A DNA stretch of 55,766 nucleotides. Origin: a virus. The stretch is taken from the IMG/VR virus record IMGVR_UViG_3300046171_000083, positions 1-55,766 of that record. One strand, 5' to 3'. Of the stretch, positions 17,279 to 43,177 are shown piece by piece (the stretch's first letter is position 1; each line of letters starts with the position of its first letter). The translations under genes and the position numbers were made by a program. The notes under the pieces were generated by a model. It saw only the letters and a program-made list of their open reading frames with translations. It did not search any database and had not been told where the DNA came from.

Positions 17279-17493
17279 TAGAAGAAAGAAAGCCAGTAGA
17301 AGAATTGGCGTTTATATTAGAAAAATTCGGATGGGACACCAAGTTTTGTGACCTAACAGAAGATCAAGTCTACACACTTATATTCGGATTACAGGCAGCA
17401 AAAGATATATCATCGGAGATTGAAATTGGGAAGCTCGAAGAAAATTACTTTAAGTCAACGGGCACTTGGCCCCCTACAAGTATCCCGTTCTGA
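17275..17493 (+). CDS. Small early protein, unknown function
   Basis: A 72-aa frame starting at TTG 17275, which overlaps the previous stop (TTGA). It reads IEERKPVEELAFILEKFGWD... and ends in a Pro-rich tail. The last 68 bp overlap the nuclease gene in another frame. No ATG is available; the alternative is that only its N-terminal part is translated. Confidence 0.4.
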   Translation: MIEERKPVEELAFILEKFGWDTKFCDLTEDQVYTLIFGLQAAKDISSEIEIGKLEENYFKSTGTWPPTSIPF

Positions 17494-18211
17494 TCCTGTA
17501 ATAGAGTCTATAGCAAAAGCTGTAGACCGAGGAATTGTTCGGCTTAATGAGCGAAGAGAGCGGCGGAAGTACCTGGGAGCGTCAAGTATTGGCGATGAGT
17601 GCAGCCGTAAAATTCAGTATCGTTACCTAAATTACCCTCAAGATGAGAACTCTGGCTTTAGCGCACAGACATTACGCATCTTTGAGTTCGGTCATGGGAT
17701 CGAAGATTACGCAGCCAAGTGGATTAAAGATGCAGGCTTTGATCTCAGGACAGAAGACAAGATGGGAGAGCAGTTTGGTTTTTCAATCGCTGATGATGAA
17801 ATCAAAGGACATATAGATGGGGTTATCTGTGATGGTCCTGTTGATATGGGCTACCCATCTTTGTGGGAAAACAAGTCAGCGAAAGACAGCAAATGGAAAG
17901 CTTTTCAACGCATGGGTGTAGCAAAAGCCAATCCCACATATGCAACGCAGATCGCTCTGTATCAGGCTTACATGGATCTAACAGAATGCCCTGCATTGTT
18001 TACAGTCGTGAATAAAAATACGTCTGAAATATACTACGAATTAGTTCCTTTTGATAAGGAGTTGGCACAGGCAGCAAGTGATAAGGCAGTAAATATCTTG
18101 ACTGCATCAAAAGCAGGTGACATTCTACCTCGCATAGCTCAGAGCAAAGATTTTTATCTTTGCAAGTTTTGTGAGTTTAGGGAGACTTGTTGGAAAGATG
18201 AATGTAATTAG
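17426..18211 (+). CDS. Cas4/RecB-like PD-(D/E)XK exonuclease with Fe-S cysteines
   Basis: The start is assigned to TTG 17426, six bases after a GGAG; product 261 aa. A first cysteine is in IGDECSRKIQYRYL, the nuclease core is GHIDGVI (Asp) followed by LWENKSAK (Glu-x-Lys), then a conserved QIALYQAYM helix, and a terminal CKFCEFRETCW provides three more cysteines. One N-terminal plus three C-terminal cysteines around a RecB-type nuclease is the Cas4/AddB iron-sulphur arrangement. It is likely a phage exonuclease producing single strands for the Sak4-like annealing system. Confidence 0.8.
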   Translation: MGSSKKITLSQRALGPLQVSRSDPVIESIAKAVDRGIVRLNERRERRKYLGASSIGDECSRKIQYRYLNYPQDENSGFSAQTLRIFEFGHGIEDYAAKWIKDAGFDLRTEDKMGEQFGFSIADDEIKGHIDGVICDGPVDMGYPSLWENKSAKDSKWKAFQRMGVAKANPTYATQIALYQAYMDLTECPALFTVVNKNTSEIYYELVPFDKELAQAASDKAVNILTASKAGDILPRIAQSKDFYLCKFCEFRETCWKDECN

Positions 18212-18273: not shown

Positions 18274-20461
18274 ATGTCATTAAGAGTAGTTGGCAATACA
18301 ATATATGGTAGCAATCAAAAAGATTTAGTCGCTGAGATTACGGAGAAAGTTCCTTCATATGTACAGATCGAAGCACTAAAGAATGCCTACCCAAACGGAA
18401 GAGTTGTTCGGAATGAGTTCTATCTTGGCTCATTGTCAGGTGAGGCAGGGCAATCTCTTAAAATAAACATTGATCCATCAAGCCCAAACTTTATGCGCGG
18501 CATGGATTTCAATAGTGGTGACGGGATCGGGGGCATATCCAAGATTCTAATGGAGGCTTACAGGTGGAAGATCACTGATGTAGCCGAACATTTCTCTACG
18601 TTCTTAGATCGTCCCCAGGCAGAAGCGCCAATTAACCCGATTAACCCGAACAAGTTACAGCAGCCCCAGGAAGAACAACCCGAACAAGTCAAGCAAAAGC
18701 GGGTCATTGATATCAATACACCGCACGATGGTGAGTATTTCTACCTATCAACTGATGGGGAAGTCCTCGTAACGGTACGAAGATATATCGAAAGAGATCC
18801 AACGGGTGAAATTGTTCGGGATACGGACGGGAATACGAAGAAAGAGTTCCGCCAGTTTCCGCGTTTACCTGAAACCAGACCGCTTTATAACCTCCCTGAC
18901 ATTGCGCAATCAGATCGCGTAATATGGGTAGAGGGTGAGAAGTGCGCAGATGAGCTAACAAAACAAGGATACACAGCTACTTGTACTATCGGTGGTGCAG
19001 GGATGTTATCTCGTAATACAAAAGACAAGTTTGATTTCTCTCCATTGCAAGGCAGAGAGCTAATCATATGGCCTGATAATGACGATGCAGGTAAGAAATT
19101 AGCTAGGATAGTTCAAGAACTGGCTCAGAATGCAGGTGCAAAATCAATCACCATGCTCGTGCCACCGAAGGGAAAGCCTAAGAAGTGGGATGCCGCAGAT
19201 GCAATTGAAGAGGGATTTGATATTTCAAACTTTCTCAATGCGCCTACGCATAAGGTTAAAAAGGTATTATCTCTTAAAAACCAGAACTTGCTTATTACTC
19301 AGCAGTTTGTTGGTTCGGCTCCAGAGCAGAAGTTTTTGATTGGAGATACAATACCGCTTGGGGTACCAGTGGTGTTTCGCAGCCGCAGGGGATAGTGGTA
19401 AAGGCATGATGACGCTTGATCTAGCGATGAAGGTAGCATCGGGCGATGGTATGCAAAGCTCTTTCGGTGGTTTTGTTTCAAATCATGGCACATCAATAAT
19501 TTTATCAGCAGAAGATGACAAAGATGAGATCCACAGACGGATCAGCAGGCTAGATCCCCTGAACAAACGTTCGGGTTATGAGCATGATTGTATCATTGTG
19601 CCGCTGCCGAACGAAGGCGGTGTGTTTCCAATTATGATGAAAGTAGACAATACATACGCAACATCACCAGAATTTGAAAAGATATACGAAGAAATGTTGG
19701 AGATTGAAGACCTTGCGTTAGTTGTTATTGATCCAATGGCATCATTTGTGCATGCAGATGTAAACGCTGATCCCGCCGCAGGTGCAGCATTCATGGGTTT
19801 GTTGGCTCAAATATCCACAGAGACAGGCGCAACAGTCATGGTAAACCACCATATGGCGAAGGTAAGCGACAATGACTTTATAGACTCGCCAGAGAAGGCT
19901 CGTAATAAAATTAGAGGTACGTCTGCGATTGTGGACGGTGTAAGATGCGCCTTCTCTGTATGGCAAGTGGATGAGCCTACAGCTAAGTCACGCTGTAAAG
20001 ACTTACAAGTTCCATACACAAGAAACGCTGTGTTTGACGGTGCAGTGGTAAAAGCAAACGGTCCTGCAAATCGGGAGATAAGACACTTTATTCGTAACCC
20101 AGATACTGGTCTGTTAGAAGATAGAAGTATAGACATACGAAATTTTGCTATGTCTCAAGCCGTTCGGGAAAGAATAGAGTATGTCTTTAATTTTATTAGA
20201 ATTCGAGAGGATCGCGGCATTCCTGTTACTAAGGGTGGTATGCATGATGGTATTTTTGATGCCATCAGAACAGCGCCAAATGATGACATAAACGCAGGAA
20301 ACCTTAGAAATGCGGTAGGAGAAAGTACAATTAAAAAGGCTGTGACTACGTTGCAAAACGATGGACGTATTGACCAGTTTAAACGAAACAGAAGTGGGCC
20401 TCGTAAATGGCTTGGTGTTGTCGGGGGTCAATTAAATCAAGAGGAAGATATACTTGACTAG
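18274..20461 (+). CDS. TOPRIM primase fused to RecA/RepA-type helicase, interrupted by a +1 shift near 19378
   Basis: The first frame (18274-19395) has a TOPRIM domain: VIWVEGEKCADEL (about residue 210), TIGGAGML and ELIIWPDNDDAGKK with the DxD metal site. The second frame (to 20461) begins with Walker A AAAGDSGKGMM and continues with a RepA/AAA_25 core: SIILSAEDD and Walker B LALVVIDP, then VNHHM. Deleting one T of the TTT at 19376-19378 fuses VPVVF to AAAGDSGKG, giving about 728 aa. It would prime and unwind DNA at the fork. The split falls in the middle of the ATPase fold, so the intact phage almost certainly makes one protein; the indel is probably a sequence error. Confidence 0.85.
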
Positions 20462-21151: not shown

Positions 21152-21360
21152 GGCCTCACTTTCGGCTTAACAAGTTTATTAGATGCAACCTCAGTTCCTT
21201 TGCAATGTATCAACACCGAATCATGTTGGCTTTCCATCATAAAATACATAGCTTCTTTGCTATAACTACAATCGTCATAGCTTTTAAATAGTATGTTGTG
21301 TGTTACCTGTTCGCCTTGAACAAAGTAACTTAACACCATGAACGTAAAATATTTAATCAT
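21148..21360 (-). CDS. Small secreted or membrane-anchored protein
   Basis: ATG 21360 overlaps the HTH gene stop as TGATG. The 70-aa product has a hydrophobic N-terminus (MIKYFTFMVLSYFVQG) compatible with a signal peptide, then a polar domain with two cysteines (DDCSYSKEA, LIHCKGTEV) that could form a disulphide in the periplasm. Function unknown. Confidence 0.55.
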   Translation of the reverse strand: MIKYFTFMVLSYFVQGEQVTHNILFKSYDDCSYSKEAMYFMMESQHDSVLIHCKGTEVASNKLVKPKVRP

Positions 21361-21737
21361 CAATTCACTCCCATTCTTTTGTCTTCAGCCTCGTATTGAG
21401 CCTTCTCTAATCGGTCAATCCAGTTCTGCAAAGTCTGGTAATTAGAAAAACCAAGCAAGTCAGCAGCCTCAGATAAAGTTTTTGTTTTAGTCAATGCTCT
21501 CTCAATATAGTTACGCTTAACCCTCTCAAGCGCAGCGTTCATATCGAAATCATCGGGGTCATCAACAAACGAACCATCGGGCATGTCGCCATCTGGGTTA
21601 GCGTCACGCCATTCATCGTTCACGCCAATGTTGTGCCTGATTTCTTCCATAAACTCTCGTAAGTCAGTTTCGGTCTTAATACCGCCCAACCGCTCAAGTG
21701 TGTAATGCATACACATCGTATCATCTGCAATAGACAT
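21360..21737 (-). CDS. Fis/NtrC-C-terminal-type helix-turn-helix protein coupled to the Tas-like gene
   Basis: Start is ATG 21737, seven bases after AAGGAGG; it shares a TAATG overlap with the Tas-like stop. The 125-aa protein has an acidic middle (DGSFVDDPDDFD) and a C-terminal HTH: RNYIERALTKTKTLSEAADL followed by LGFSNYQTLQNWIDRL, matching the Fis/HTH_8 pattern (EAAxLLG turn, then recognition helix). Tight coupling to the Tas-like gene suggests a joint role, for example regulating array expression or aiding DNA binding; that link is inference. Confidence 0.65.
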   Translation of the reverse strand: MSIADDTMCMHYTLERLGGIKTETDLREFMEEIRHNIGVNDEWRDANPDGDMPDGSFVDDPDDFDMNAALERVKRNYIERALTKTKTLSEAADLLGFSNYQTLQNWIDRLEKAQYEAEDKRMGVN

Positions 21738-22444
21738 TATGCTACCTCCTTCCATTCTTTGTATAAATCTTTAACCAAACGCTTTGTCATATAACGTAAG
21801 GCTCTGTTATGCGCATGACCGTCTGTTTCAACTCTCTCACGCTCCATAATCTTACGCTTATCGTACACCATTCTGTATGGCCCTGCATTTTCTTCTTTGC
21901 CTTGAGCCTTGAGAAGACTGTCGCCAATTGTCCAAAATACCGCATGCCTTGAGGGGCTATAGCCGTGAACCAATGCCATTTCAGCATTGCTGTGCTTACG
22001 CTGTCGTTCTCCATCAATCACGGCAAGTCCTGCACGTTTATAAATACCGTCCAGTTCTTTCTCATAAGCCATGAAGTCGCCAACTTCTCCGACAATACCT
22101 GCCAAGCCCAAATGACCAAAGCCTCTAACTTTGTCTACAAAAGTTGCAACAGGTAATTCTTTTGCTAAGTCAGATAACCACTTTTCAAAACCCGCTCTAC
22201 TTTTTAACAAAGGTTCTCTGGCATCAAACAATGGTTTTGTTGCAGCCATAAGCTCAATTGAGCCTTCTCCTTTTTTCAAAGCAACAAATAATTTGTTTGC
22301 TGCTTTAATCTCACCATCTGCAAAACCTCTACAGATAGCTTTAATTTGCAAAACTAATTTACCTTCAGCGCGAACCATATTTTGACGGTTGCGCCATGTT
22401 CGATAAATCATTGCGATAGTCGGGTCTTCATATCTTGTATCCAT
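21737..22444 (-). CDS. Tas-like (TasA-type) Nop-domain guide-RNA-binding protein, no nuclease domain visible
   Basis: A 235-aa protein starts at ATG 22444, seven bases after AAGGAG (22452-22457), directly downstream of the repeat array. Residues 1-100 are helical. Residues 106-124, VRGFGHLGLAGIVGEVGDF, match the conserved G-x-G...GE-GD helix-turn element shared by Nop56/58-type domains and the IS110 C-terminal (Transposase_20) domain; GYSPSRHAVFWTIGDSL (161-177) and GPYRMVYDKRK (188-198) continue it, and HAHNRALRYMTKRLVKDLY (210-228) closes it. I see no RuvC DEDD set and no HNH motif. In TIGR-Tas systems, Nop-domain Tas proteins bind the array RNA; nuclease-free members are known as TasA. The assignment rests on motif pattern plus array adjacency, not on a search. 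The alternative is a degenerate IS110-type transposase, but no catalytic N-terminal domain or transposon ends are present. Confidence 0.8.
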   Translation of the reverse strand: MDTRYEDPTIAMIYRTWRNRQNMVRAEGKLVLQIKAICRGFADGEIKAANKLFVALKKGEGSIELMAATKPLFDAREPLLKSRAGFEKWLSDLAKELPVATFVDKVRGFGHLGLAGIVGEVGDFMAYEKELDGIYKRAGLAVIDGERQRKHSNAEMALVHGYSPSRHAVFWTIGDSLLKAQGKEENAGPYRMVYDKRKIMERERVETDGHAHNRALRYMTKRLVKDLYKEWKEVA

Positions 22445-22463
22445 ATTGGATCTCCTTGGTTGC

Positions 22464-23241
22464 GAGGCGACTACGTTGTGGCATTGCTGCGTGTCGTCGA
22501 TAGCCTCTGGTTATATTGGGCGCTCAGGGACTGGCATTTCTGCGGATTGAGTTTGGCCCAAATCTGGTGGGAGCGCCCTCTAAAAGACATTGCTGCGTAC
22601 CTATAGCGGCTCCCATAAATTAATAGAAAAGGGAGAAACAGTAGCGGCTTGATGAGCGTACAAATTATGTCCTTTCCTAACTGGTGGGAGAGTGCAATCC
22701 CCGTGACATTGCTGTGGGTCTCTTCTGACCCTCCCATAAACTGGTGGGGAAGGGTGAACCATGAATGGCATTTCTGCGGGGCCATGATGACCCTTCCCTT
22801 GAGAGCGGTAGCGCATTGGCATTTCTGCGTTTGATCCTTGGCTCTCGTAAATAAGTGGGAGCGATCATAGATGGGCATTGCTGCGTGGTAACAAAGGCTC
22901 CCGTAAACTGGTGGGGAAGGGCGACTCCGCCTTGGCATAGCCGCGCTTTTTGATTGACCCTTCCCTTGGGAGCGTTCCTCCATAGGCATTACTGCGCAGT
23001 CATGATGGCTCCCGTAAACTGATCGGGAAGGGTGTTTGTTACGTGGCATCTCTGAGATAAAGCCGTGACCCTTCCCTTGAGAGCGAGTGACCCTTGGCAT
23101 TTCTGCGCTGACTCTCTGGCTCTCGTAAACTAATCGGGAAGGGTGATTTAAGATTGACACTGCTGTGTGATTAGGATGACCCTTCCCTAACTGGTGGGAG
23201 CGTGCGCTGTGTAGCATTGCTGCGATATTCAAGTGGCTCCC
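22464..23241 (-). repeat. TIGR-like guide RNA array, 14 units
   Basis: Fourteen units share the + strand plan arm-G-N9-T-GGCATTnCTGCG-N9-T-G-arm. Cores start at 22480, 22533, 22586, 22646, 22705, 22767, 22818, 22874, 22934, 22985, 23045, 23096, 23156 and 23213, 51-62 bp apart. Left and right variable segments are always 10 nt (9 plus a usual T: 10/14 left, 12/14 right). Arms pair and covary: GGGAGC/GCTCCC, GAGAGC/GCTCTC, GGGAAGGGT/ACCCTTCCC, TTGGGC/GCCCAA, GAGGC/GCCTC. On the - strand the core reads C-GCA-GNAA-UGC-C, a GNRA tetraloop hairpin. Variable pairs (+ strand) by unit: 1 actacgttg/tgtcgtcga; 2 ctcagggac/gattgagtt; 3 ccctctaaa/tacctatag; 4 aaacagtag/tacaaatta; 5 caatccccg/ggtctcttc; 6 aaccatgaa/gggccatga; 7 gtagcgcat/tttgatcct; 8 atcatagat/tggtaacaa; 9 actccgcct/ctttttgat; 10 ttcctccat/cagtcatga; 11 tttgttacg/ataaagccg; 12 agtgaccct/ctgactctc; 13 atttaagat/tgattagga; 14 tgcgctgtg/atattcaag. 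Flanking genes are all on the - strand, so the transcript is leftward. Confidence 0.9.
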
Positions 23242-23249
23242 ATATAACA

Positions 23250-23789
23250 TTACGATACCATCACATCCGTATGGATGGCCTCTACATCTTCAATCTTCCA
23301 AACATCCCGAACAATTTTACCTTCGGGCATCTTCTCCAAGATCGCAGATAAAAACTTATGATTACGTTTGTGCGTACTCATCTTGCCATGCTCTCGCTTA
23401 ACAACAATCTCTAAATCGCTTTTAGTTGCATCTCCAAGAGCAATACCCAATTCGGGTAATGCAAAGTAATCAAAGATATTCTTGGCATAATTAACAGCCG
23501 TATTCTTCAAAGACACATTCGGGGTAGAATGTTCGCCCTTCTTTAATAAAACCTGCTTTGAAATCTTTTCAGCCTGACGCTTAAAACTAATTCGGTTTGT
23601 TCTTGATCTGGCGCTTACATCTTCAGATGCAATGCGTTGCAAATAACGTGCGGTAGCCGCATCACGCAAATCTTTATCATTACGCAACATATTAAGATAC
23701 TTTTCAGCAGCTTGCTTTTGCGTCTTTGAGTTTTCCCAAGCCTTTTCAATGGCCTCTAAAACAATCGGGTTTCTACTTTGATAAGTCAT
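23250..23789 (-). CDS. Unknown basic helical protein abutting the array, candidate TIGR partner
   Basis: The 179-aa protein (MTYQSRNPIVLEAIEKAWEN...) is rich in Lys/Arg and helical over residues 1-105 (QKQAAEKYLNMLRNDKDLRD, SFKRQAEKISKQVLL), then more mixed (DYFALPELGIALGDATKSDL...). Its stop is 8 bp from the first transcribed array unit, and its start overlaps the upstream zinc-knuckle gene. I recognise no family. The placement immediately 5-prime of the array transcript makes it a candidate array-associated protein; a DNA- or RNA-binding role is only suggested by its charge. Confidence 0.6.
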   Translation of the reverse strand: MTYQSRNPIVLEAIEKAWENSKTQKQAAEKYLNMLRNDKDLRDAATARYLQRIASEDVSARSRTNRISFKRQAEKISKQVLLKKGEHSTPNVSLKNTAVNYAKNIFDYFALPELGIALGDATKSDLEIVVKREHGKMSTHKRNHKFLSAILEKMPEGKIVRDVWKIEDVEAIHTDVMVS

Positions 23790-24794: not shown

Positions 24795-24936
24795 CGGACA
24801 CCTCAACCTTTTTATCCACTGGAATAAGAACTTTAAGGTGAACAAATCCCCCTTGCATCGAACTGATGCTGTAAGTATAGGGGCAAGTTTTCACCCACTT
24901 TAAAAAGCTCTCCATGTTTTCAATTTGAAAATTCAT
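24787..24936 (-). CDS. Small early protein, unknown function
   Basis: A 49-aa frame from ATG 24936 with AAGGAGG seven bases upstream; it overlaps the stop of the GGCT-like gene as ATGA. Sequence starts MNFQIENMESFLKWVKTCPY and has a beta-rich second half (GGFVHLKVLIPVDKKVEV). The strong ribosome site makes it real; no family is recognised. Confidence 0.6.
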   Translation of the reverse strand: MNFQIENMESFLKWVKTCPYTYSISSMQGGFVHLKVLIPVDKKVEVSDD

Positions 24937-25358
24937 ACTGCAACCTCCTTTCGCTTCTCCTCATTAAAAGAAGCATCTTCCCTAGCCGCTCTCAAATACC
25001 AATCATCAAGACCGAAATCATCATAACCGCTCTCAATCATATCGTAATAGCCGCTTGATGGATGCCGCAAGTTACCTTTGTCGCCATTCATGTCGTAGAT
25101 AATCCAATTGCCGTTGATCTTGCGTCTACCGTATAAAGTCGGGTAGCCTTCAAGCCTATCAAGTGCCTTCAAACAATCGTGGGTAATCTCCCACAATACT
25201 ACAGGCAACACACAATCTGGGTCGTAACGAAAGTCAGCTACGCCCCGAAAAATCAAACGGTGATTGGGCAGATAAAAGCCGCCCATAGGTTTTGCATTCG
25301 GACACCTTGCCGCCATAGCATCGCGGTTTGTGTTCATGCCATACGCTAAATAATACAT
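24933..25358 (-). CDS. Gamma-glutamylcyclotransferase-like protein (GGCT/AIG2 fold)
   Basis: The 141-aa protein has the GGCT signature YLAYGMNTN at residues 3-11, RCPNAKPMGGFYLPNHRLIF (18-37), and the catalytic-Glu segment ALDRLEGYPTLYGR near 68-81. GGCT-fold enzymes release 5-oxoproline from gamma-glutamyl amides. An amidoligase is encoded 2.2 kb away; comparative analyses of amidoligases have noted pairing with GGCT-like proteins, consistent with making and removing isopeptide or gamma-glutamyl tags. Its ends overlap both neighbours by a few bases. The fold is well supported, the substrate is unknown. Confidence 0.85.
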   Translation of the reverse strand: MYYLAYGMNTNRDAMAARCPNAKPMGGFYLPNHRLIFRGVADFRYDPDCVLPVVLWEITHDCLKALDRLEGYPTLYGRRKINGNWIIYDMNGDKGNLRHPSSGYYDMIESGYDDFGLDDWYLRAAREDASFNEEKRKEVAV

Positions 25359-27598: not shown

Positions 27599-28666
27599 AT
27601 GACCTTAACATTTGGAATAGAAATAGAAACGTACCGCAATTCAGTTAGCATTGTTCAAAGCGCATTACATAATAACGGCATAAAAGGCTGTTTAGTAAAA
27701 CCCGATGGAACGCCTAGTGTGGATGCCGAAATAGTATTGCCACCGATAACATTATGCCAAGTTGGTAAAGAATACCTTGAAAGCGTTTGTACTGTATTGA
27801 GTAACGCGGATTGCCGCATTAATCAATCATGTGGATTGCACGTTCACATAGGCAACGCGCCACTAGCCGACACAACTCACGCGGCACGTTTTACAGGCGA
27901 TAGTATTTTACATACTGAGCGTACAGGCCGTTTTTTATCAGAGCATGGCGATACTTTTGAGTTTCCAATAGTAAAAGATTTAAATTGGCGTTGGGAACGT
28001 CAACAAAATATTATCAATGGCATGTTTCCTAGATCTCGCACCAATAACAGATATTGCAAACCATTGAACGCCACCAAAATTGAAAACGCCAATACTATTA
28101 GCGAATTAAATCATGGCAAGTTTTACGCTATTAACCTTGATACTTGGCGTAACGGTACCATAGAATTTAGGCAGCATAGCGGCACGATTGAAGCCGACAA
28201 AATTTGGCGTTGGATGCAATTCTTAGACAATTTTGTTAATTGGACGATTGAAGCAAGAGTTGAACAAGGCAATAGATCGACAACGATTGAAACGCCTATC
28301 GCGCCATTTCGCAATGGTTCAAGAGTTGGCGTTCAATATACTATGATGCGAAATGACAACGGCGTATCAACTCGAGAAATTATGGATGCAACAGGTTGTA
28401 GCGAACAACGCGTTCGCGCCGCCGTTTCCGAAATTAGACAACGCGTTGGTGATAATGCTGTAGTCACTCATACGCAACAATCCAACGGCGCTAGATATGG
28501 TGATGGTACGGATCTTACACGTTATCAAGTTCTACAAACTATTGAGAGCGAGACAAACGGCGTGACATTACTTCCCGAAAATAGAATTGGCATACCTAGC
28601 ATTTGGGCGGGATTGGACGATAGCGAGTTCGAGCATTGGCAAAATAGAATATCCGCGCTGCGATAG
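27599..28666 (+). CDS. Putative amidoligase (COOH-NH2 ligase, glutamine-synthetase-like fold)
   Basis: The 355-aa protein shows the diagnostic motifs of the phage/plasmid amidoligase family: TFGIEIETY at residues 3-11 (metal/ATP-binding acidic residues), INQSCGLHVHIGN near 77-89, and GTIEFRQHSGTIEADKIWRW near 181-200. These align with the glutamine-synthetase-like amidoligase family (PF12224) predicted to join an amine to a carboxylate on peptides or proteins. The last 100 residues are an extra region possibly containing a winged-helix-like segment (TREIMDATGCSEQRVRAAVS). A GGCT-like gene is encoded nearby. ATP-dependent ligation is expected; the substrate is unknown. Confidence 0.85.
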   Translation: MTLTFGIEIETYRNSVSIVQSALHNNGIKGCLVKPDGTPSVDAEIVLPPITLCQVGKEYLESVCTVLSNADCRINQSCGLHVHIGNAPLADTTHAARFTGDSILHTERTGRFLSEHGDTFEFPIVKDLNWRWERQQNIINGMFPRSRTNNRYCKPLNATKIENANTISELNHGKFYAINLDTWRNGTIEFRQHSGTIEADKIWRWMQFLDNFVNWTIEARVEQGNRSTTIETPIAPFRNGSRVGVQYTMMRNDNGVSTREIMDATGCSEQRVRAAVSEIRQRVGDNAVVTHTQQSNGARYGDGTDLTRYQVLQTIESETNGVTLLPENRIGIPSIWAGLDDSEFEHWQNRISALR

Positions 28667-42571: not shown

Positions 42572-42715
42572 GTTTTTCTCCCTAATTAATGTTTTGATTT
42601 TATATAATTAAGATTAAAAACACTATCTCTTTCTTTTTGTTAAATATGTGGTATTGTGTGGTTATCCCTGACAGCGGCATTGGGCTGCTGACACAACCCA
42701 AGACAGGAGATTGAC

Positions 42716-43177
42716 ATGGGTATTACTACTTTTTCTGGCCCTATAAAGGCAGGAACAATCAAAAATACAACAGGAACAACTCTTGGTTCTGACATTGCAA
42801 ATGTCGGTCAAGTTGTTATGGCACAAACATTTTCAGCAGATTTATCTGGCGGTGCATTAGCCGCGTCTGTTACAAACGTTGTTATTCCTGCAAACTCTCA
42901 GATAATTGACTGTGTTATTGATGTTATTACTGCTGCCAACGCAACAACAAATTTGAGCATCGGTGATACTGTAGGTGGCGCTGCTACTATTTTAAACACG
43001 TTTGCAAGCGGAACAACTGCGGGTCGTAAATATCCAACTACAGAAGCAGGCGCTGCATTAGCTTGGCAAGACACAGGAACAGCGGATATTCGTTTGACTG
43101 TTACTGCTTCTGCCGCAACAAATGCGGGTTTAGTTCGTTTTACAATTCTGTATCAGCAAAACAATAACCTAGCGTAA
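42716..43177 (+). CDS. Head fibre/decoration-like structural protein
   Basis: A 153-aa Ala/Thr/Gly-rich beta protein (MGITTFSGPIKAGTIKNTTG...) containing NVVIPANSQIIDCVIDVITA and DIRLTVTASAATNAGLVRFT. Start follows AGGAGATTGAC. Such proteins follow the capsid gene in marine phages. Surface decoration is inferred. The 144 bp upstream (42572-42715) hold no gene but must contain its promoter. Confidence 0.65.
   Translation: MGITTFSGPIKAGTIKNTTGTTLGSDIANVGQVVMAQTFSADLSGGALAASVTNVVIPANSQIIDCVIDVITAANATTNLSIGDTVGGAATILNTFASGTTAGRKYPTTEAGAALAWQDTGTADIRLTVTASAATNAGLVRFTILYQQNNNLA

Follow-up and report, generated by a model that had tools for sequence, protein, structure and literature searches.

A TasA-type TIGR-Tas cassette with a stem-loop array and a tightly linked partner gene in a marine tailed phage

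What does a guide-binding protein do for a phage when it carries no nuclease? The question is raised by a locus in IMG/VR virus record IMGVR_UViG_3300046171_000083, a marine tailed phage whose entire record of 55,766 bases is the stretch analysed here and is referred to as the window. A 235-amino-acid open reading frame (ORF), tasA, lies beside an array of hairpins on the minus strand, where the order is partner gene, array, tasA (Table 1). An earlier examination of the letters alone (the sequence-only reading) had proposed that tasA encodes a nuclease-free TasA-type protein next to its array, suggestive of binding, silencing or recruitment of another effector. In the main text of Faure et al. 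(PMC12045711), the role of TasA proteins lacking a nuclease is described as unclear and their targets as hard to find, and the proteins mostly stand without clear partners, apart from occasional ParB-like genes. The locus described here is likely to be a TasA-type TIGR-Tas cassette with a stem-loop array, guides that bind both strands of DNA, and an output by occupancy. The gene directly upstream of the array, which was missed by the sequence-only reading, goes together with the array and TasA at all loci examined.

The tasA ORF opens with an ATG at 22444 and closes with a stop codon at 21737–21739, and AAGGAG is found about 8 nucleotides (nt) upstream of the start. It is not a chance frame, since a relative (71–100% identity) is encoded at each of 55 IMG/VR loci. 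A single-sequence search of PDB sequences returns TasR (9MTY), whose structure comes from the work of Faure et al., as the sole match (E 4.2e-10). With a TasA profile, the match to TasR improves to E 3.6e-14 and places residues 67–233 on TasR residues 138–295, the Nop domain that follows the N-terminal RuvC part. Because this match begins at TasR residue 138, RuvC and HNH have no room in TasA, and Pfam contains no match of any kind, and thus no nuclease domain, for the 235 residues, in agreement with the earlier claim that both nucleases are absent. The NCBIfam model NF052498 (TIGR_Tas_endo), an equivalog model for TIGR-Tas RNA-guided endonucleases with a curated cut-off of 100 bits, matches with E 1.2e-21 and 77.7 bits, under that cut-off; TasA is, as judged by this score, a relative of the endonuclease and not its equivalog. 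The three segments to which attention had been drawn before, GFGHLGLAGIVGEVGDF, GYSPSRHAVFW and HAHNRALRYM, are all present in TasA and fall among invariant or nearly invariant columns in an alignment of 21 homologues that are 41–98% identical.

The AlphaFold2 model of TasA is poor (predicted local distance difference test score, pLDDT, 60; shallow alignment), with most of residues 10–90 well predicted as long helices. Helical residues 8–96 of this weak model align to TasH, Nop5 and IS621 (Z of about 7–8) and to TasR (Z 6.9), scores of a size that comes easily from helical bundles. The structural neighbours include Nop5, Prp31, TasH, TasR and IS621/IS110; at this low model confidence and with Foldseek E values above 0.3, they are weak evidence for a Nop-type fold. 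Because the fold evidence is weak, the assignment of the ORF as a nuclease-free TasA-type Tas protein rests on sequence homology.

A different origin is hinted at by PHROGs, in which TasA belongs to PHROG 4285, labelled transposase (E 1e-13), and by a weak match to an IS110 NCBIfam model (E 0.0066) that covers residues 12–141 only. These matches could mean that TasA derives from an IS110-type transposase, by decay or domestication, and that the repeats beside it are unrelated. Such an origin is scarcely credible: the DEDD/RuvC catalytic domain is absent, the TIGR-Tas model matches far better, and the ORF is intact, conserved at the 55 loci and always adjoining an array, a linkage that already largely refutes the idea.

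The units of the array follow, on the tasA strand, the pattern stem, GYC, 10 nt, CRC-A-GNNA-TGYC, 10 nt, CRC, stem. Read as elements, a unit opens with the outer stem and box C, continues with the 9-nt spacer A, then the GNRA-capped loop that carries boxes D and C, then the 9-nt spacer B, and closes with box D and the stem. Among 280 distinct spacer pairs, about 85% have A as the first of the 10 nt; for this reason box C is taken to be CCA-like, similar to that of TasR arrays, and each spacer to be 9 nt long. In the window units, box C is CCA and box D is CRC, and the commonest inter-spacer loop is CGCAGAAATGCC, in which a 3-bp stem carries a GNRA tetraloop. Across the outer and loop stems, 98.6% of cells are paired versus 83.5% after shuffling, with 63 double-changed cells versus 16, and at most 52.8% are paired once the partner column is shifted. 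Most of the covariation resides in the 6-bp outer stem (99.2% of cells paired, double changes in five of six pairs), and two of the three loop pairs are invariant. The minimum-energy fold of unit 1 is exactly the expected architecture, and the fold of the whole array is stable (z -3.9). The unit scan gave zero unit-like scores in shuffled sequence, and the array matches no small nucleolar RNA (snoRNA) or K-turn family in Rfam. A 259-amino-acid ORF that spans the array (22471–23250) was rejected as a gene, being a by-product of the repeats.

The edges of the array are variable palindromic stems and not the fixed 8–12-nt repeats that define dual-repeat TIGR arrays. By its architecture, the array is assigned to the stem-loop TIGR arrays described by Faure et al. 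(2025; PMC12045711), and it fits the subset in which, according to the main text of that paper, the intervening sequence is fixed in length and sequence. Together with the TasR and NCBIfam TIGR-Tas profile matches, this architecture upholds the original proposal of a nuclease-free TasA-type protein beside an array.

A stable fold inside an apparent single transcript, at strict spacing to both genes, would also suit hairpins that are cis-acting mRNA elements of attenuation, processing or stability, with TasA as an unguided, autoregulatory RNA-binding protein. The spacers, however, diverge rapidly, whereas the stems, the loop and the length of the spacers are retained. Guides would be expected to behave in this way, and a cis element would not. 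All spacer pairs are shared at tasA identities of at least 99.9%, 18% at 97–99%, and almost none below 85%. In addition, TasA is reported to bind processed unit RNAs in pull-downs, and a homologous stem-loop system is processed to single units (PMC12045711, main text). A purely cis-acting role is therefore considered very unlikely.

Comparisons with known systems help to place the cassette. The TIGR-TasA system on a Peromyscus leucopus gut contig, as presented in the main text of PMC12045711, also combines a solo Nop protein without nuclease with a stem-loop array of about 13 units in which palindromic stems take the place of edge repeats. The main differences are that the window loop is fixed in length and sequence (a small CGCA-GNRA-UGCC hairpin), that the window cassette is one tight array between two genes with the partner always present, and that it is carried by marine phages from the alphaproteobacterial sphere. 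TasR (9MTY) with dual-repeat TIGR arrays shares Nop homology, a CCA box C, 9-nt spacers and, by expectation, dual-strand targeting, whereas the window TasA has no RuvC, the window edges are variable stems instead of fixed repeats, and box D is CRC rather than UG. Similar to the window locus, the TasA-TasParB operon depicted in PMC12045711 has TasA beside a second conserved gene with an array near or between, but that partner is ParB-like and the arrays are dual-repeat, while the window partner has no detectable ParB similarity. IS110 and its bridge RNA resemble the cassette in the C-terminal RNA-binding domain and the box C/D-like guide ends; in contrast, the window has no DEDD domain in TasA, no transposon ends that could be seen, and many guides rather than one bridge RNA.

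The box C/D small nucleolar ribonucleoprotein (snoRNP) built on Nop56/58 or Nop5 is alike in its two guides per RNA and in the Nop-type fold and coiled-coil dimer expected of TasA. It differs in that no fibrillarin partner and no K-turn/L7Ae element are recognised in the cassette, and the window loop is GNRA-capped. TasA begins at the putative coiled coil, and the N-terminal fibrillarin-binding domain of Nop5/56/58 has no room. With its pair of guide segments enclosed by box C/D ends and stems, a unit also looks like a box C/D snoRNA, and Nop5 and Prp31 are in the structure-match list of the weak TasA model. These likenesses would suit guides that address RNA as snoRNAs do, with TasA and the partner controlling or marking transcripts and not DNA. 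We regard RNA targeting as unlikely, as TasR, the closest sequence relative whose activity is known, binds and cuts double-stranded DNA and showed no activity on RNA (PMC12045711, main text), and no methyltransferase or L7Ae-like gene is recognised in the cassette. Judged by sequence, the cassette is a TIGR-Tas member of the TasA type with a stem-loop array, and is not a dual-repeat TIGR system, an IS110 element or a snoRNP. Three features appear to be new relative to the main text of PMC12045711: the obligate partner gene, the constant GNRA loop and the dynamics of the cassette.

The linkage of the three parts is strict. Homologues without an array, which had been named beforehand as counter-evidence, were not encountered among close relatives: all 50 TasA loci with upstream sequence have the array, and units are found nowhere else. 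A search from the partner yields 60 loci, with the array in 57 of the 57 that have downstream room and TasA in 48 of the 48 that have enough room. A search from the array pattern yields 52 contigs, 51 with TasA or the partner; the remaining one was rejected as a true array, being a stemless chance match within a protein-coding gene. The partner stop lies 6–9 nt from the first stem, and the last stem 18–24 nt from the TasA start, and by this linkage and spacing the array is locked between the two genes. The partner, a basic protein, is present at 38–100% identity even in phages without any other tested flanking window gene, and has no family match, ParB included, in Pfam, NCBIfam, PHROGs or PDB.

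Distant TasA homologues are encoded by Rhizobium phage RHph_X2_25 (34% identity) and on five genome contigs of alphaproteobacteria, among them Rhizobium, Shinella and Methylobacterium; none were found in the plasmids searched. Upstream of each is a protein with a partner-like C-terminal pattern (LGxAT..DL in most). With the marine-only partner profile, the Methylobacterium protein is found at E 2.9e-8 and the Rhizobiales members are not significant. Once extended with Rhizobiales and Methylobacterium sequences, the profile finds a metagenome-assembled genome protein at E 4.9e-7 and ranks a Rhizobium sp. protein second of 4,119 ORFs (E 0.06). For the Rhizobiales proteins, the putative homology to the partner is based on their pattern, their position and the joint alignment. 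In most of the distant loci, the partner-like gene and TasA are separated by hairpins whose interiors measure about 30 nt; none were seen there in the Methylobacterium locus.

Linkage alone does not prove joint function, and the partner has no recognisable domain; the TIGR-TasA system could be real and the partner an independent passenger or an operon regulator outside the guided complex. This arrangement seems rather unlikely, though less so than RNA targeting, given that the partner is kept at every locus, in phages without other common flanking genes and in distant alphaproteobacteria, and the Fis-like gene is not. Tentatively, and with a little less than even confidence, we propose that the partner is an obligate part of a DNA-binding machine of two proteins that is guided by RNA and does not cut, in which TasA and its guides would locate the site and the partner would deliver the effect, be it silencing, replication block or recruitment.

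A mechanism can be outlined for such a cassette. Because the three parts share a strand and are packed with hardly any sequence to spare, partner, array and tasA are probably one transcript. Each hairpin would serve as one guide; sequence and covariation show that the outer stem and the GNRA hairpin keep apart the two 9-nt spacers, which boxes C and D flank. By homology with TasR, a TasA dimer may use its Nop domains to hold a single unit at both of its box C/D ends. In the guides of TasR and TasH, spacers A and B pair opposite strands, and TasR bends DNA by about 180 degrees (PMC12045711, main text); in the same manner, TasA may unwind its DNA target, with spacer A pairing one strand, spacer B the other, and the DNA being bent. 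As TasA has no nuclease, the output would be occupancy, namely a block of transcription or replication, or recruitment, and the partner would be the best candidate for an effector or loading factor. A role in binding, silencing or recruitment, without cutting, is plausible. The rapid turnover of spacers, the patchy distribution of the cassette and the lack of self-targets suggest that the cassette may act against competing mobile elements that share its hosts.

Targets were sought in the order spacer B followed by the reverse complement of spacer A, B+rc(A), which was deduced from the cut sites and 3′ overhangs given in the main text of PMC12045711. Self-targets in the window have at best 3 mismatches, and none has the right geometry with a gap of 0–2. 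Several points weigh against the mechanism outlined above. The 319 units have zero exact dual-spacer B+rc(A) matches in 388 loci of related phages (1.8 million distinct 20-mers), and one-mismatch matches at gap 2 form 5 clusters versus 2.2 expected from shuffled pairings, which is not clearly above. An exact scan of IMG/VR and 385 alphaproteobacterial genomes with unit 9 found a single site, in an alphaproteobacterial prophage, at chance level. DNA as the target is itself carried over from TasR and TasH, and the AlphaFold2 model of the partner (pLDDT 73.6) has no convincing match among PDB or viral structures.

Two exact dual-spacer matches in the 388 loci were rejected as targets and counted as background because their geometry differs, with B then A on the same strand. 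For unit 9, an IMG/VR match in a GC-rich phage and the genome match are not two sites but the same DNA (100% over 1.7 kb), and a second conserved unit has no match in the 385 genomes. That spacers track coding sequence was also rejected, as within-spacer differences have no 3-nt periodicity (45/176 versus 25% expected); a cross-spacer phase preference is weak and is not claimed.

The cassette is optional in the lineage of the window phage, being present in 5 of 14 relatives with enough sequence. The nine cassette-less relatives keep the Fis-like gene, and several also keep the far-side 166-amino-acid gene or the cyclotransferase gene, with other cargo between, such as a 97-amino-acid ORF in L336 (16556–17846) and a 335-amino-acid ORF in L378 (16300–18400). 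Because this cargo differs, the stretch separating the Fis-like gene from the next conserved gene resembles a site for variable cargo. The Fis-type helix-turn-helix gene (21360–21737), the start of which overlaps the tasA end, is kept in the phage lineage whether or not the cassette is present; it was rejected as a cassette component, since other TasA phages are without it and cassette-less relatives have it.

The rest of the window contains genes for terminase, portal, major head protein, primase-helicase, and Sak4-like and Cas4-like proteins, and no GenBank phage is near-identical to a 25-kb stretch of it. The Cas4-domain exonuclease gene is at 17420–18211 (PHROG 1990, E 2e-70). Overlapping ORFs at 18274–19395 and 19340–20461 match consecutive parts (148–314 and 354–609) of the PHROG 239 primase/helicase and look like a single gene divided by a frameshift; as relatives have the same offset, a conserved split or a programmed frameshift is possible. 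A Mu-gpT-DE RNA (Rfam RF03012, 69 bits) is found at 42666–42718, downstream of the major head protein gene. A gamma-glutamyl cyclotransferase-like gene (24933–25358) and an amidoligase-like gene (27599–28666) are possibly host-takeover or modification genes.

Table 1. Features of the cassette in the window. Units are given as spacer A / spacer B, 10 nt each, the first nt belonging to box C.
Feature	Position	Strand	Remarks
tasA, 235 amino acids, putative Nop-domain Tas protein without nuclease	21737..22444	-	TasR 9MTY profile, NF052498, PHROG 4285
AAGGAG of tasA, ribosome-binding-site-like	22452..22457	-	sequence
Stem-loop TIGR array, 13 clear units and 1 degenerate	22464..23241	-	between partner stop and tasA start
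Partner gene, 179 amino acids, no known family	23250..23789	-	directly upstream of array
Unit 1: ACTTGAATAT / ACACAGCGCA, loop CGCAGCAATGCT	23196..23241	-	fold matches architecture
Unit 2: ATCCTAATCA / AATCTTAAAT	23136..23187	-	fold z -4.56
Unit 3: AGAGAGTCAG / AAGGGTCACT	23079..23124	-	
Unit 4: ACGGCTTTAT / ACGTAACAAA	23025..23076	-	
Unit 5: ATCATGACTG / TATGGAGGAA	22968..23013	-	
Unit 6: AATCAAAAAG / AAGGCGGAGT	22914..22965	-	
Unit 7: TTTGTTACCA / CATCTATGAT	22857..22902	-	
Unit 8: AAGGATCAAA / AATGCGCTAC	22801..22846	-	
Unit 9: ATCATGGCCC / ATTCATGGTT	22747..22798	-	most widely shared spacer pair
Unit 10: AGAAGAGACC / ACGGGGATTG	22686..22735	-	
Degenerate unit, 13-nt loop: ATAATTTGTA / GCTACTGTTT	22625..22677	-	by eye, unscored in unit scan; weak fold
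Unit 11: GCTATAGGTA / TTTTAGAGGG	22569..22614	-	
Unit 12: AAACTCAATC / AGTCCCTGAG	22516..22561	-	
Unit 13: ATCGACGACA / ACAACGTAGT	22464..22507	-	stem end 19 nt ahead of tasA ATG

The conserved partner is a concrete lead on what non-cutting TIGR-Tas systems do, and partner and TasA make up a defined two-protein cassette for purification. Close phages with and without the cassette provide a natural comparison, and the biology is testable in the laboratory because distant relatives are found in strains of Rhizobium, Shinella and Methylobacterium that can be cultured and in RHph_X2_25, an isolated phage. If the proposal for the partner is true, the two-protein machine would be a TIGR subtype, a swappable cassette of alphaproteobacterial phages with rapidly renewed spacers.
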